DNA from: Deltaproteobacteria bacterium
GTDB lineage: Bacteria > Myxococcota > Myxococcia > Myxococcales > 40CM-4-68-19
DNA: 12,503 nucleotides
Direction: 5' to 3'
NCBI GenBank assembly: GCA_005879095.1
Contig: VBLM01000530.1
Location: forward strand, 1 to 12,503
A model generated the notes under the pieces. The model made no database searches. It was given only the letters and a program-made list of their open reading frames with translations, and was not told the origin of the DNA. Shown one piece after another: positions 5,253 to 12,051 of the stretch. Numbering within the stretch: position 1 is the stretch's first letter; every line of letters starts with the position of its first letter. Made by a program: the position numbers and the translations under genes.

Positions 5253-5603
5253 TCAGCGCGCTTCGCGCCAGGCCTTGGCGAACTCTCCGCTCAGGACGAA
5301 ACGCGGGAACGTGATCCACTGCTCGGCGAAGAAGCGCTTGAGCACGTCAGTGGGTCCGAGGAACGGCGCCGGCGCGGTCTTCTCCAGCTTGTGACCGCTG
5401 CCTTGCGCGATCATGCTCGCCAGCATGACCGCCGCGCCGCCCACGCCGGCCATCACGCCGGCCAGCGGCGAAAGCGCGAGCGCGCAGGTGCCGGCGAGGA
5501 AGATCGGCGCCGTCGCCGCGTGCAGCGCGAGGTTGCGCCGATCGCGGTGGCCGTCCGGATACAGCGACCACTGCCACTTCAGCAGTCCGCCTTCGCGCTC
5601 CAT
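5253..5603 (-). CDS. Small membrane protein, DUF962/Mpo1-like
   Basis: This 116-residue protein has two hydrophobic segments (about 31-49 and 50-67) flanked by conserved-looking polar motifs: GHRDRRNLALH (H19, N24, H28), then SGHKLEKTAP (H71, E74), and an aromatic/basic C-terminal part (about 87-112). The layout H-x4-N-x3-H, two membrane segments and GH-x2-E-x2-P resembles the DUF962/Mpo1 family. Yeast Mpo1 is an Fe(II)-dependent dioxygenase of 2-hydroxy fatty acid alpha-oxidation whose histidines are essential. Whether this bacterial relative has that activity is unknown, and similar bacterial proteins often carry uninformative names. The gene starts 9 bases after the ilvE stop and looks like the last member of the ilv/leu chain or the first of the efflux set. 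The ribosome site is weak. The open frame and coupling make it a credible gene; the family call is from motif memory only. Confidence 0.75.
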   Translation of the reverse strand: MEREGGLLKWQWSLYPDGHRDRRNLALHAATAPIFLAGTCALALSPLAGVMAGVGGAAVMLASMIAQGSGHKLEKTAPAPFLGPTDVLKRFFAEQWITFPRFVLSGEFAKAWREAR

Positions 5604-5612
5604 GCGCGGAGT

Positions 5613-6542
5613 CTAACCGACCGCCGCCGCCGCGGGGTGGACCTCGGTCAACCACCGCGCCGACAACCGGTGTTCGCCGCGCACGATCGCCTGGTACGCG
5701 CGTTGAAACGCCTGTGTCACCGGCCCGGTGCGGCCTGTGCCGACGGTGCGGAAGTCGATCTCGCGCAGCCCGATCACCTCTGCTGCCGTGCCGCTGACGA
5801 AGACTTCGTCGGCCGCGTAGAGTTGATCGCGCGAGACCGGCGCTTCCTCGACCGGATGGCCGATCTCCGGCGCCAACTCGATCAGCGACTGGCGGGTGAG
5901 ACCGTTCAAAATGTTGGCGTCGGGCGGCGTGCGCACTCTGCCGTTCTTGACCATGAAGATGTTCTCGCCGGTGCACTCCGCGACCATCCCCTGGGCGTCG
6001 AGCATGATGGCCTCGTCGAAGCCGAGCCGCAGCGATTCGGTCTTCGCCAGCACGGAATTCGCGTAGTTGCCGCTCACCTTCGCTTTGGTCATCGTCACGT
6101 TCGGTTGGTGTCGCGTGAACGACGAGACGTTGGCGCGCACGCCGAGCGCGGCCGCTTCCGGGCCGAGATACTGCTTCCATTCCCAGACCGCGATTCCGAC
6201 GTGCGGCTTGCCGGCGTCGACGGTGAGGTTCCATCCGCCCTCGGCGAGATACACCAGCGGGCGGATGTAACACTCCTCGAACGGACTGGCGGCAACCGTG
6301 TCGATACACGCCTGCGTCAGCTGTTGCGCCGTCCACGGCAGCTCGCGAAATCCGAGGATGCGTGCCGACTCGCACAAGCGCGCAATGTGATCATGCAGCC
6401 GAAAGATGGCTGGCCCGCGCGTGGTGCGGTAGCAGCGGATGCCCTCGAAGACGGCGATGCCGTAGTGAAGCGCCGGCGTGAGGAAATCGAGCTTCGCCTC
6501 CGCCGGCGCGACCAGTTTGCCGTTGAACCACATGCGGGTCAT
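5613..6542 (-). CDS. ilvE: Branched-chain amino-acid aminotransferase
   Basis: This fold-type IV PLP enzyme (309 residues, usual length) interconverts Val, Leu and Ile with their 2-oxo acids, using 2-oxoglutarate/glutamate, as the last biosynthetic step. Family motifs are present in order: [13 protein letters not shown] (26-38), PLP-binding lysine K155 in [10 protein letters not shown], the cofactor-contact segment [20 protein letters not shown] (176-195) with E189, [10 protein letters not shown] (215-224) and VSGTAAEV (249-256). The frame stays open upstream to 6899, but the ATG at 6542 is chosen. It overlaps the ilvC stop as ATGA and has an AAGGAGG ribosome site 4 bases before it at 6547-6553. 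A second ATG at 6533 is less well placed. Expression is probably coupled to ilvC. The Mpo1-like gene starts 9 bases downstream. The C-terminal Ala/Val tail is variable in the family. No key residue is missing. Confidence 0.96.
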
Positions 6543-7579
6543 GCAGCCTCCTTCTTCGGCGGCGGCGCCTCGCTGGAGTCCTTCTGCTTGTTGCGGATCC
6601 AGCTCATCGTCTCGCGCAGGCGGCGGCCCACTTCCTCGATCGGGTGCGCGCGGCCCTGCTCGCGCAGCTTGTCGAACACCGGCCGGCCGGCCTGGTTCTC
6701 GAGGATCCATTCGCGGGCGAACTTTCCCGTCTGGATCTCGCCGAGGATCTTCTTCATCTCCGCGCGCGCCGCCTCGCCGACGATGCGCTCGCCGCGCGAG
6801 TAGTCGCCGTACTCCGCCGTGTCGCTGATCGAGTGGCGCATCCAGGAGAGACCGCCCTCGTACATCAGGTCGACGATCAGCTTCAGTTCGTGCAGGCACT
6901 CGAAGTACGCGCTCTCGGGCTGGTAGCCGGCGCCGACCAGCGTGTCGAATCCGGCGGTCACCAGCGCGCTGATGCCGCCGCAGAGGACCGCCTGCTCGCC
7001 GAAGAGATCGGTCTCGGTTTCCTCGCCGAAAGTGGTCTCCAGAACGCCGGCGCGCGTCGCGCCGAGTGCGCGCGCGTACGAGAGTCCGGTCGCGTGCGCG
7101 CCGCCGGTCGCGTCCTGCTGCACGGCGATCAACGCGGGCGTGCCCTGCCCTTCGCTGTAGAGCCGGCGAACGAGATGGCCGGGCGCTTTCGGCGCGATCA
7201 GAACCACGTCGACATCCGGCGGCGGCTTGATCTGGCCATAGTGGATGTTGAAGCCGTGCGCGAAATAGATCGCCTTGCCCCTGGTCAGCGAGGGCAGGAT
7301 CTCATTCTCGTAGATCTTCTTCTGCTGCTCGTCGGGCGCGAGCACCATGATCAGGTCGGCCTCGCGCGCGGCCTCGGCGACGCTCAGCACACGCAGGCCT
7401 GCGCGCTGCGCCTTCTCGCGAGACTTGCTGGCCGCGTGCAGTCCGACGCGGACGTCGACGCCGGAGTCGCGCAGATTGAGCGCGTGAGCGTGGCCCTGGC
7501 TGCCGTAGCCGACGATGGCCACCTTGCGCCCGCGCACCAGGTCGAGATTCGCATCCTTGTCGTAATAGAGAGTGGCCAT
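6539..7579 (-). CDS. ilvC: Ketol-acid reductoisomerase, class I
   Basis: This enzyme converts 2-acetolactate or 2-aceto-2-hydroxybutyrate to the 2,3-dihydroxy acid, using NAD(P)H and Mg2+. At 346 residues it is a class I (short) enzyme. The Rossmann domain carries GYGSQGHA (24-31), with cofactor-loop serines S51 and S53, which suggests NADPH preference. Catalytic H108 is in FAHGFNIH. The metal- and substrate-binding acids are D191 and E195 ([12 protein letters not shown]), then E227 and E231 ([19 protein letters not shown]), and S252 in SISDTAEYG. All are one residue shifted from the usual family numbering, so nothing is missing. An AAGGAG ribosome site at 7587-7592 lies 7 bases before the ATG and sits inside the end of ilvD; the ilvD stop is one base upstream of this ATG. 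Because ilvC has its own strong ribosome site it may be translated even though ilvD upstream is broken. The Lys/Pro/Ala-rich tail (about 332-346) is lineage-specific. Confidence 0.98.
6547..6553 (-). promoter_or_regulatory. Ribosome binding site deciding the ilvE start
   Basis: The minus strand reads AAGGAGG, a full Shine-Dalgarno match, inside the last codons of ilvC. It is 4 bases from the ATG at 6542 and 13 bases from the alternative ATG at 6533. This and the ATGA overlap with the ilvC stop support the 6542 start. Confidence 0.8.
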
Positions 7580-7580
7580 G

Positions 7581-9183
7581 TCATTGCTCCTTGTTCGGCG
7601 AAGTGATGGCGCCCTCTTCCGCCGATGAGACGAGGGCTGCGTACTTGGCGAAGACGCCGGTCCGGTAGCGCGGCGCGGGCGGCTTGAAGTCGCGCATCCG
7701 CTCCTGCAGTTGCCGGGCGGTGATTTCGAGATCGACTTTTCTGGCGTCGACGTCGATCGAGATCGTGTCGCCCTCTCGCACCGCGGCGATCGGTCCGCCC
7801 GCGGCTGCTTCCGGCGAAACGTGGCCGAGCATCAGCCCGCGCGTGGCGCCGCTGAAGCGACCGTCGGTGACGAGCGCGACGGATTCGCCCAGGCCCTGTC
7901 CGACCAGCGCCGCGGTCACGCCGAGCATCTCGCGCATGCCGGGTCCGCCGCGCGGGCCTTCGTAGCGGATCACGACCACGTCGCCGGCCTTGATCTGCCC
8001 GTCGCGCACCGCCGCGAACGCGTCTTCTTCGCGATCGAACACGCGCGCCGGCCCGCGATGCCGCGGCCGCTCGTGACCCGCCATCTTGACCACCGCGCCT
8101 CCGGGAGCGAGCGAGCCGCGCAGGATGCACAGGCCGCCGGTGGCCTTGAACGGATTTGCCGCCGTGCGGACGACGGGCTGGTTTGGCGTCTCCCGTCCTT
8201 CATGCGCGCGCCACGGCGTGCCGTCGGCGGTGAACGCGTCGCCGTCGAATCGGTTCGCTTCGATCAAGCGCTGCGCGACGAGCGGGACGCCGCCCGCCCG
8301 GTGCAGGTCGACAGCGGTGAACTCTCCGCCCGGCTTGAGCGAGGCGATCAGCGGCGTGCGCGCGCTCACTCTGTCGAAATCTTCGAGCTGGAGAGGAATC
8401 CCGGCTTCGCGCGCGAGCGAGAGCAAATGCAGCACGGCGTTGGTCGATCCGCCGGTGGCCGCGACGCCTGCGATCGAGTTGTCGAACGACGCGCGCGTGA
8501 CGATGCTGCGCGGGCGGACATCGCGTTTCAGCAGATCGACGACGAGCTTGCCCATCTCGCGCGTGGCGTCGTCCTTGCGCGGATCGGTCGCCGGAATGCT
8601 GCCGTAGCCGACCGGACCGAGGCCGAGCAGCTCGACCGCCATTGCCATCGTGTTGGCGGTGAACTGCCCGCCGCATGCTCCCGCGCCGGGACAGGCCACG
8701 TCCTCGATCGCATGCAGCGTCTGCAGCGGGATCTTTCCGGCGGTGTGGGCTCCGACCGCTTCGAAGACGTCGACGATGGTGACGTCGCGGCCCTCGAACC
8801 GGCCGGGCATGATCGAGCCCCCATAGAGGACGAGCGCCGGCAGGTCCAGGCGCAGCACTGCCATCGCCGCCCCGGGGATGGTCTTGTCACAGCCGACCAG
8901 GCAGACGACCGCGTCGAACAGATGACCTCGGCAGACGAGCTCGATGCTGTCCGCGATCAATTCGCGGCTGACCAGCGCCGGCGGCGCGGATGCCCTCCTT
9001 CGCTTTCTCGGCGAGCCGGCGCAGATGGAAGTTGCACGGCATCGTCTCGGTCCAGGTGTTGGCGACACCGATGATCGGTTTCTGCAAGTCCTCGTCGGTG
9101 AAACCGATCCCTTTCAGCATCGCGCGCGCGGGGGCCCGGTCGGGGCCTTCGGTGATGACGCGGCTCTTATGTCGCGGGTCCAT
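7581..9183 (-). pseudogene. ilvD: Dihydroxyacid dehydratase, split by an internal frame-breaking deletion
   Basis: IlvD dehydrates 2,3-dihydroxy acids to 2-oxo acids using an Fe-S cluster and Mg2+. The gene begins at ATG 9183 (TGATG overlap with the leuB stop, GAAAGG ribosome site 6 bases away). It reads correctly for 69 residues to KEGIRAAG, including cluster Cys50 (TETMPCN), then runs out of frame to a stop at 8887. The correct sequence resumes in another frame at codon 8978-8976 with [13 protein letters not shown] and continues 465 residues to the stop at 7581. This part holds VGCDKTIPG (cluster Cys and carboxylated Lys), PGAGACGGQFTAN (third cluster Cys) and DGRFSGATRG (catalytic Ser). 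The 69 and 465 residues plus about 25 missing ones give the usual length of about 559. The absent block normally reads roughly EFNTIAVSDG...GMKxS and supplies a Mg2+ ligand, so ribosomal frameshifting alone could not restore it. Either the gene is inactive or the assembly lost about 74 bases. Confidence 0.9.
8976..8979 (-). other. Deletion junction inside ilvD
   Basis: The last codon fitting the N-terminal frame (Gly69, GGC at 8979-8977) overlaps the first codon fitting the C-terminal frame (GCG at 8978-8976, the residue before LVSRE). The two halves of the family alignment meet here with about 25 codons absent and the frame changed, implying loss of about 74 bases. The local sequence GCCGGCGCTGG would allow 2-3 bases of microhomology at the break. 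Confidence 0.8.
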
Positions 9184-10244
9184 CAATCGCCTTTCGCGTT
9201 CAACGCGTCGAGGACGGCGATCCCGACTTCGCGCGTGCTGGCCGCAGATCCGTTCTTCGCGAGGTCGGCGGTCAGCACGCCGCGTTCCACGGCCGCCGAA
9301 ACCGCCCCTTCGACTGCTTCCGCCTCTTCCTGCAGGCCGAGCGAAAGACGCAACAGCATCGCCGCGGCGAGGATCGTTCCCAACGGATTCGCGACGCCCT
9401 TCCCGGCGATGTCGGGCGCCGAGCCGTGGATCGGCTCGTACAGGCCGCGCTTGCCGTCGCCGAGCGACGCGCTGGGCAGCATGCCGATCGACCCCGCGAT
9501 CATCGCCGCCTCGTCGCTCAGGATGTCGCCGAACATGTTTTCGGTGACGATGACGTCGAACTGACGCGGATCGCGCACCAGCTGCATCGCGCAGGAATCG
9601 ACGAGCTGGTGCGAGAGCTGCACGGAGGGAAATTCGTCGCGGACCACGCGCTCGGCGACGCGCCGCCAGAGGCGCGAAGTCTCCAGCACGTTGGCCTTGT
9701 CGACCGAGCACAGCCGCTTCCGGCGCCTTTTCGCCAGCCTCGCGCCGGCCCGCACCAGCCGTTCGACTTCGTGCTCGGTGTACGTGCAGGTATCGACCGC
9801 GTACCCGGCCGCGCTTTCTTTCTTGCCGAAATAGAGTCCGCCCGTCAGCTCGCGAACGATGAGGAGATCGACGCCGGCGATCACTTCCGGCCGCAGCGTG
9901 GACGCGTGCGCGAGGCGCTGGTGGGCGACGACCGGGCGCAGGTTCGCGTAAACGCCCAGATCCTTGCGCAGCGCGAGCAGTCCCTCTTCGGGCCGCGGCG
10001 CCCTTTCCCATTTCGGTCCACCGACTGCGCCGAGCAGCACGGCGTCGGCCTCGCGGCACAGGGCGAGCGTGTCATCGGGCAGAGGCACGCCGCCGGCGTC
10101 GATGGCGCAGCCGCCGAACTTCGCCTCGCGCAGCTCGAACGCATGCCCGAAGCGCGCGCCGACAGCGGTGAGGACGCGCCTCGCTTCCGCCATCACCTCC
10201 GGACCGATGCCATCGCCGGGCAGGACTGCGATCAAGGCCTTCAT
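9183..10244 (-). CDS. leuB: 3-Isopropylmalate dehydrogenase
   Basis: This NAD-dependent oxidative decarboxylase converts 3-isopropylmalate to 2-oxoisocaproate in leucine synthesis. At 353 residues it is the usual length. Motifs: [10 protein letters not shown] (8-17), substrate-binding arginines R93, R103 and R131, Tyr138 in TGGLYFG, Lys183 in VDKANVLE, metal-binding D216, D240 and D244 ([12 protein letters not shown]), and [13 protein letters not shown] (270-282), where D278 favours NAD over NADP. The open frame extends upstream to 10532, but the ATG at 10244 is the real start. It overlaps the leuD stop as ATGA, has GAGG at 10252-10255 seven bases before it, and gives the conserved N-terminus. 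The stop TGA shares a base with the ilvD ATG (TGATG). No insertions, gaps or missing catalytic residues are visible, unlike its neighbours leuC and ilvD. Confidence 0.97.
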
Positions 10245-10744
10245 CGGCGCGCCTCGAACGCGGCGATCTCTTTTTCCGCGGCGAGCAGGTACCCGAGCTC
10301 GTCGATCTCGTTGATCAGGCAATGGCGCGCGAATGGATCGAGCGCGAACGACTGCCTGCGGCCCTCGCATTCGACGGTGCACGTCTCCAGATCGATCGCG
10401 ACTTCCCCACGCAGCTGCGACGTGTCCGGGATCTGCACCGGCACGAGGCCGTTCTTGATCGCGTTGCTGCGGAAGATGTCGGCGATCGACGAGCTGATCA
10501 CGGCGCGGAAACCGTGATCGAGAAGCGCCCACGGCGCGTGCTCGCGCGACGAGCCGCAGCCGAAGTTTTCGCCTGCGACGAGGATGCTGCCGGTTTGTCC
10601 CTGCAGGAATTCGGGCCGATCGGCGAACAGCGCGACACCCAGTCCCTCGCGCCTGGTCGTGCGCAGGAAGCGCGCCGGGATGATCTGATCGGTGTCGATG
10701 TTGGGCCGCAGCACGACGACGGCGCGCCCTTTCAGGAGCTTCAT
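10241..10744 (-). CDS. leuD: 3-Isopropylmalate dehydratase, small subunit (compact form)
   Basis: LeuD is the swivelling small subunit of the aconitase-type isopropylmalate isomerase and pairs with LeuC. At 167 residues it carries [12 protein letters not shown] (16-27), the signature [19 protein letters not shown] (58-76), [18 protein letters not shown] (86-103) and the bacterial-type C-terminus with [17 protein letters not shown] (138-154). It is about 34 residues shorter than E. coli LeuD. The shortening falls in two places: after FAD at residue 42, where bacterial-type LeuD normally has a WRY.../PxFVLN loop, and after PVQI at about residue 105. Archaeal-type LeuD is of similar length but has a different C-terminus. 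The ATG at 10744 overlaps the leuC stop (ATGA) and follows a strong GGAGGT ribosome site. The open frame above it, to 11566, is antisense or out-of-frame noise over leuC. The active-site segment is intact, so function is plausible. Confidence 0.94.
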
Positions 10745-12051
10745 CGCAGGACCTCCCGCGGGTCGGCGATCGCGCCGGCCACCGCTGCGGCGGCGGCGGT
10801 GAGCGGGCTGGCGAGGAACGTCCGTCCGCCCTTGCCCTGCCGGCCTTCGAAGTTGCGGTTGCTGGTGCTGACGGCCGCCTGTCCCGGCGCGAGCGCGTCC
10901 CCGTTCATGGCGATGCACATCGAGCAGCCCGGCTCGCGCCATTCCGCCCCGGCGTCGCGGAAGACCTTGTCGAGGCCCTCGCTCTCCGCAGCGCGCTTGA
11001 CCTGCTGCGAACCGGGGACGATGAGCACGCGTACTCCGGAGGCGATTCTGCGTCCGCGCAAGACCGACGCGGCGGCTCGCAGATCCGAGAGGCGGCCGTT
11101 GGTGCAACTGCCGACGAAGACGACGTCGATCTTCGTCCCGAGGAGCGGCGCGCCGGGTTTGACGCCCATGTAGGTGGCGGACTTCTGCGGCGCGTCTTCC
11201 GGGACGTTGCCGTCGACCGGAATCGCGGTGCCCGGGTCGGTGCCCCAGGTGATCATCGGCGCGAGCCTCGACACGTCGACGGCGATCTCCCTGTCGAAAC
11301 GCGCGCCCTCGTCGGTCTGCCACGCGCCGGACCCGACCATTCCCGCGCGCGCGCCGGCTTCGATCGACATGTTGCAGACCGTCATCCGCTCTTCGATCGA
11401 CATCGCGGAAACGGTCCTGCCCGCGTATTCGATCACCGAGCCGGTGCCGCCGCCCACGCCGAGCTTGGCGATGACTGCGAGGATCACGTCCTTGGCGGTC
11501 ACGCCCGGCTGCAAAGCGCCTTCGATGGAAACCCGCATCGTCTTCGGCTTGCGCTGCAAGAGGCACTGCGTCGCCAGCACGTGCGCGACCTCGCTGGTGC
11601 CGATGCCGAAGGCGAGCGCGCCGAACGCGCCGTGCGTGGAGGTGTGGCTGTCGCCGCAGACGACTGTCATCCCCGGCTTCGTCAGACCGAGCTCCGGACC
11701 GATGACGTGGACGATTCCCTGGTTGCGCGAGCCGAGCTCGTGCAGCTCGATGCCGTGCTCGCGGCAGTTGCGCGCCAGCGTCTCGACCTGCGTCTCGGCG
11801 TCGCCGTGCGCGAACGGAAATCGACCGTTCACACGCGGCAACGTCGGGGTCGAGTGATCCATCGTCGCGACCGTTCTTTCCGGGTGCCTCACGCGAAGGC
11901 CTCGCTCGCGCAGGACCGTGAACGCCTGCGGCGAGGTCACCTCGTGCACCAGGTGCAGATCGACATAGAGGATCGCCGGCGCGTCCTCCGTCTCCGGCCG
12001 CACCAGATGCGCGTCCCAGATCTTGTCCAAGAGAGTTCTAGACTGCGCCAC
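10741..12051 (-). CDS. leuC: 3-Isopropylmalate dehydratase, large subunit, with a missing internal block
   Basis: LeuC is the [4Fe-4S] large subunit that isomerises 2- to 3-isopropylmalate with LeuD. Cluster cysteines C316 (GSCTNGR), C376 and C379 (PGCSMC) are present, as are [20 protein letters not shown] (132-151), N227 and E231 in [10 protein letters not shown], and [11 protein letters not shown] (396-406). The protein is 436 residues, against 466 in E. coli. After GARAGMV (residue 239) the nearly universal APDETTF...GR...AP block and following helix are absent. GSGAWQ leads straight into TDEGARFD, a deficit of about 27 residues against E. coli. A second, milder contraction (about 10 residues) sits near residues 284-290. 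The start is a GTG at 12051 with AGAGGT 5 bases upstream, overlapping leuA by 14 bases. Identity is certain; activity is doubtful if the gap is real. Confidence 0.95.
10751..10756 (-). promoter_or_regulatory. Ribosome binding site deciding the leuD start
   Basis: The minus strand reads GGAGGT 6 bases before the ATG at 10744, within the last codons of leuC. Together with the ATGA overlap it fixes the leuD start well inside a much longer open frame. Confidence 0.75.

Follow-up and report, generated by a model that had tools for sequence, protein, structure and literature searches.

The 74 bases that are absent from ilvD in the window, by which we mean the whole 12,503-nucleotide stretch analysed here (positions 1 to 12,503 of contig VBLM01000530.1, assembly GCA_005879095.1), were in our estimate lost through a fault of the assembly (probability about 0.9), and a normal, full-length ilvD is very probably present in the organism. 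A first-pass annotation had reported the internal deletion and had read the gene as a dead copy that would require a second ilvD or leave the organism auxotrophic. The observation is confirmed; the dead-copy reading is not supported, and what was observed is most likely an assembly artefact and no real feature. The evidence observed for an assembly fault comprises the missing block itself, intact relatives, a near-identical intact protein (P0001), further N-free missing blocks in the same assembly, and N-runs that are too short. Counting against it, the window contains no N, its other eight compared genes are unbroken, and the 3-base overlap of the edges would equally suit a real microhomology deletion.

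A leu-ilv cluster occupies the minus strand of the window in the order leuA (end), leuC, leuD, leuB, ilvD, ilvC, and ilvE (Table 1). Within ilvD (minus strand, 9183-7581), the frame switches where the bases are absent, as 74 does not divide evenly by three. The trinucleotide CGC at the junction is common to the sequence of relatives on both sides of the block, and the break can thus be placed anywhere within 8974-8978. Both parts of the gene had been said to match dihydroxyacid dehydratase (DHAD), with the frame changing where about 25 conserved residues are missing, and a profile search bears this out: model NF002068 is matched at positions 3-65 by 8989-9183 (-) with an E-value of 7.9e-21 and at positions 94-557 by 7581-8990 (-) with an E-value of 3.8e-196. 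Taken alone, the C-terminal piece scores 652.9 bits against NF002068 (cut-off 644) and 564.3 bits against TIGR00110, which is under the cut-off of 618.15.

Table 1. Features of the leu-ilv cluster in the window and N-runs sized cleanly elsewhere in the same assembly (G000) by comparison with the genomes of relatives (G002 and others)
Feature	Position (strand)	State	Basis
leuC	10741..12051 (-)	unbroken	TIGR00170, 598.7 bits
leuD	10241..10744 (-)	unbroken	TIGR00171, 141.6 bits
leuB	9183..10244 (-)	unbroken; upstream neighbour of ilvD	TIGR00169, 481 bits
ilvD N-terminal piece	8978..9183 (-)	own frame up to the join; beyond it the frame continues out of phase and stops at 8887	NF002068 3-65
ilvD join	8974..8978 (-)	74 bases absent, 3-base overlap CGC	
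ilvD C-terminal piece	7581..8977 (-)	open in a different frame, with CDK motif	NF002068 94-557
ilvC	6539..7579 (-)	unbroken; downstream neighbour of ilvD	TIGR00465, 447.8 bits
ilvE	5613..6542 (-)	unbroken	TIGR01122, 354.7 bits
N-run		100 N for a true 122	G002, G003
N-run		73 N for a true 110	G003
N-run		57 N for a true 97	G002
N-run		198 N for a true 265	G002
N-run		174 N for a true 234	G002, G003, G005, G006

The window gene resembles IlvD (NF002068/TIGR00110, Ilv/EDD family) in sequence, in its place in the operon, in its C-terminal half, and in the CDK motif, which supplies the cluster cysteine and Mg ligands; a passage of PMC5770437 describes this motif of DHAD. It differs from the family in that the assembled copy has no continuous frame and has lost residues ~71-94 as numbered in P0001, among them the aspartate (D82) of the SDG segment, a putative further Mg ligand. 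The claim that the lost block supplies such a ligand holds by spacing: D82 lies 41 residues ahead of the cysteine of CDK in P0001, the same distance that separates the Mg ligand D98 from the cluster ligand C139 of Arabidopsis DHAD as given in a passage of PMC11528067. By this match of spacing, the two aspartates would be equivalent. Read at face value, ilvD as assembled could hardly yield an active enzyme. Both pieces are open and conserved, as they would be in a working split or recoded enzyme, but neither splitting nor frameshifting would bring back the SDG aspartate and the rest of the ~25 missing residues, and we regard such an enzyme as extremely improbable.

Comparison of the locus in the nearest relatives, a check that the annotation had proposed, revealed the 74 extra bases at the junction in every one of the eight genomes whose DNA could be matched to the window on either flank of it (G001, G002, G003, G005, G006, G008, G010, and G016). 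An ilvD protein match was found in 18 relatives, 10 of which were too diverged in DNA for the junction to be compared. The SDG-bearing block is likewise present in four aligned relatives, in PDB chain 6nte_A, and in P0001, an intact ilvD product of 558 amino acids that a public protein search recovered from another public assembly (ENA, 2 contigs). P0001 is identical to the large piece of the window gene at 461 of 465 residues and to the small piece at 69 of its first 70 residues. G002, the closest other species compared, reaches 91% over the large piece, which suggests that the source of P0001 is probably the same species as that of the window; the two may represent different strains, or one material assembled twice.

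The truncated 98-amino-acid ilvD product was not found elsewhere among the best 120 of 1295 matches, where the top identity was 89%. Two proteins that resembled a similarly broken ilvD in length or coverage were rejected, one (P0136) with an unrelated tail and the other (P0201) with the block retained and a later frameshift. In G008, about 75 residues of ilvD are absent in frame (L119, ~8338-8348; G008:C115), including ACPGAGACGG, with no N nearby; G010, from the same genus, has a full ilvD. This loss in G008 may be real or a further joining fault.

We then considered the state of the assembly. G000 comprises 791 pieces and is estimated to be 62% complete. A search for a second ilvD, also proposed in the annotation, found none in G000, which says little at such completeness. 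Our sample comprised the window and 60 more sequences (61 in total), from which 21 that consisted entirely of N (each under 3 kb) were left out. The 40 readable sequences (255,282 bases) contain eight internal N-runs of 28-198 bases, which indicates that the pieces of G000 are scaffolds; no N was present in the G002 sample, which comprised its ilv contig and 60 other sequences. All five of the eight N-runs that could be sized cleanly against relatives are too short, with shortfalls of 22-67 bases (Table 1). As to the others, the 28-N run of L135 lies in a diverged stretch that is not cleanly sizable and at face value is short by only ~2 bases against G003, and those of L204 and L224 had no match in relatives usable for sizing. 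Shortfalls of 22-67 bases would bring the estimates for gaps of up to ~80 bases close to zero or into negative values; the blocks missing without N are of the same size range as such gaps.

Such blocks were sought in nine G000 stretches aligned to G002 (32,072 bases in total), chosen as matches of >78% identity and >300 bases. Eight blocks of at least 40 bases are absent from G000, of which two coincide with N-runs and six (49, 78, 66, 59, 51, and 74 bases, the last being that of ilvD) are N-free. The 51-base block (L140) sits in a weakly aligned end where its edges are not resolved. In the reverse direction, a single block of 266 bases is absent from G002, and the excess of six over one is not significant by itself (p = 0.125).

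Blocks of this kind break genes at other places in the assembly. When G002 open reading frames (ORFs) were paired with G000, six of 113 changed frame, at four places: ilvD, an N-free join in L229 (near 13134, 59 bases absent), an N-free join in L227 (near 2859, 49 bases absent), and an N-run in L238. The reverse comparison gave one of 92 pairs, namely an antisense ORF that lies across the 266-base block. These counts were taken on all ORFs, as long antisense ORFs displace real genes and render a count of non-overlapping ORFs unusable. Relatives also carry additional bases at blocks other than that of ilvD. At position 12361 of L229, 65-66 more bases are present in all five relatives checked, and near 13134 these five carry some 53-65 more (net). 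At position 2859 of L227, G002 and G003 carry 49 more bases and G001 and G005 still more; the match to G006 ends about there.

Edges could be resolved at three of the six N-free joins, where they overlap by 3, 1, and 0 bases. The annotation had named an assembly collapse as the alternative to a real deletion. An assembly fault is upheld, in the form of a gap closed without Ns; collapse of a repeat is rejected on the basis of these overlaps. Loss of blocks through extreme base composition was also rejected, given a G+C content of 0.65-0.69 in the three resolved blocks versus 0.68 in the sampled assembly, as was a general stripping of Ns, given that N-runs are still present.

Underestimation of gap size, with contig ends joined without N, is a general fault of short-read assemblies. 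The window shares with this known artefact a short missing block with little overlap of its edges, several such blocks per assembly, and marked gaps that are undersized; we infer that the ilvD join is a scaffold gap. Two contigs would have ended inside ilvD and would have been linked into a scaffold by read pairs. Given an undersizing of ~20-70 bases in this assembly, the estimate for the true gap of 74 bases would have come to roughly zero or a negative value, and the contig ends would have been abutted without Ns. A literature search for assembly frameshifts arising from scaffolding found no paper.

Alternatively, the 74 bases might truly be deleted in this strain, whether as a fixed or a segregating change, and ilvD inactivated; the strain would then import branched-chain amino acids or have another ilvD in the unassembled part of its genome. 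The single small deletion and the clean join with 3 bases of microhomology resemble a recent pseudogene formed by microhomology-mediated deletion, and a passage of PMC12919014 describes branched-chain auxotrophy as common among myxobacteria. The names of similar proteins (Myxococcales) suggest that the organism is itself related to the myxobacteria. In addition, four of 12 genomes of the same GTDB family are without matches to ilvD and ilvC, the same four for both genes (G004, G007, G009, and G011). Their completeness is 74% for G004, 98% for G007 and G009, and 88% for G011; allowing for the low value of G004, this joint absence points to loss of the whole pathway in some genera. Set against a real deletion are the recurrence of similar losses in other scaffolds of the same assembly together with its biased gap sizes, the existence of P0001, the unbroken remainder of the operon in the window, and the finding of no second lesion in ilvD beyond the join. 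Relaxed selection is also not seen in ilvD between G000 and G002: its two pieces have dN/dS values of 0.047 and 0.099, similar to those of ilvC (0.093) and ilvE (0.084), with leuC, leuB, and leuD at 0.158-0.211. These values fit a working gene, although a very recent deletion would give the same ones. On balance, we consider a real deletion unlikely.

Elsewhere in the window, eight further genes are each in one piece when compared to G002 (Sel1-like, HlyD-like, AcrB-like, ilvE, ilvC, leuB, leuD, and leuC). A small ORF at 5253-5603 shows weak Mpo1-like similarity, scoring 23 bits against a cut-off of 24; it finds no match in G002 and coincides with the 266-base block absent from that genome. 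In leuC, in-frame stretches that amount to 37 alignment columns, including a segment after GARAGM, are absent in G000 and G002 and present in G010 and G008; the gene still scores above the LeuC cut-off. These gaps are probably real, because they are common to two species.

Collectively, our findings suggest that an assembly fault best explains the broken ilvD, and that in this and likewise-made draft genomes, gene breaks with 40-80 bases absent should not be called as pseudogenes or as auxotrophies before the reads have been checked. A real lesion, improbable as we hold it to be, would be the first step in a decay of branched-chain synthesis, with the rest of the operon intact and with relatives that lack ilvD and ilvC jointly; it would offer a view of pathway loss soon after its onset, where some related genomes appear to have completed it.
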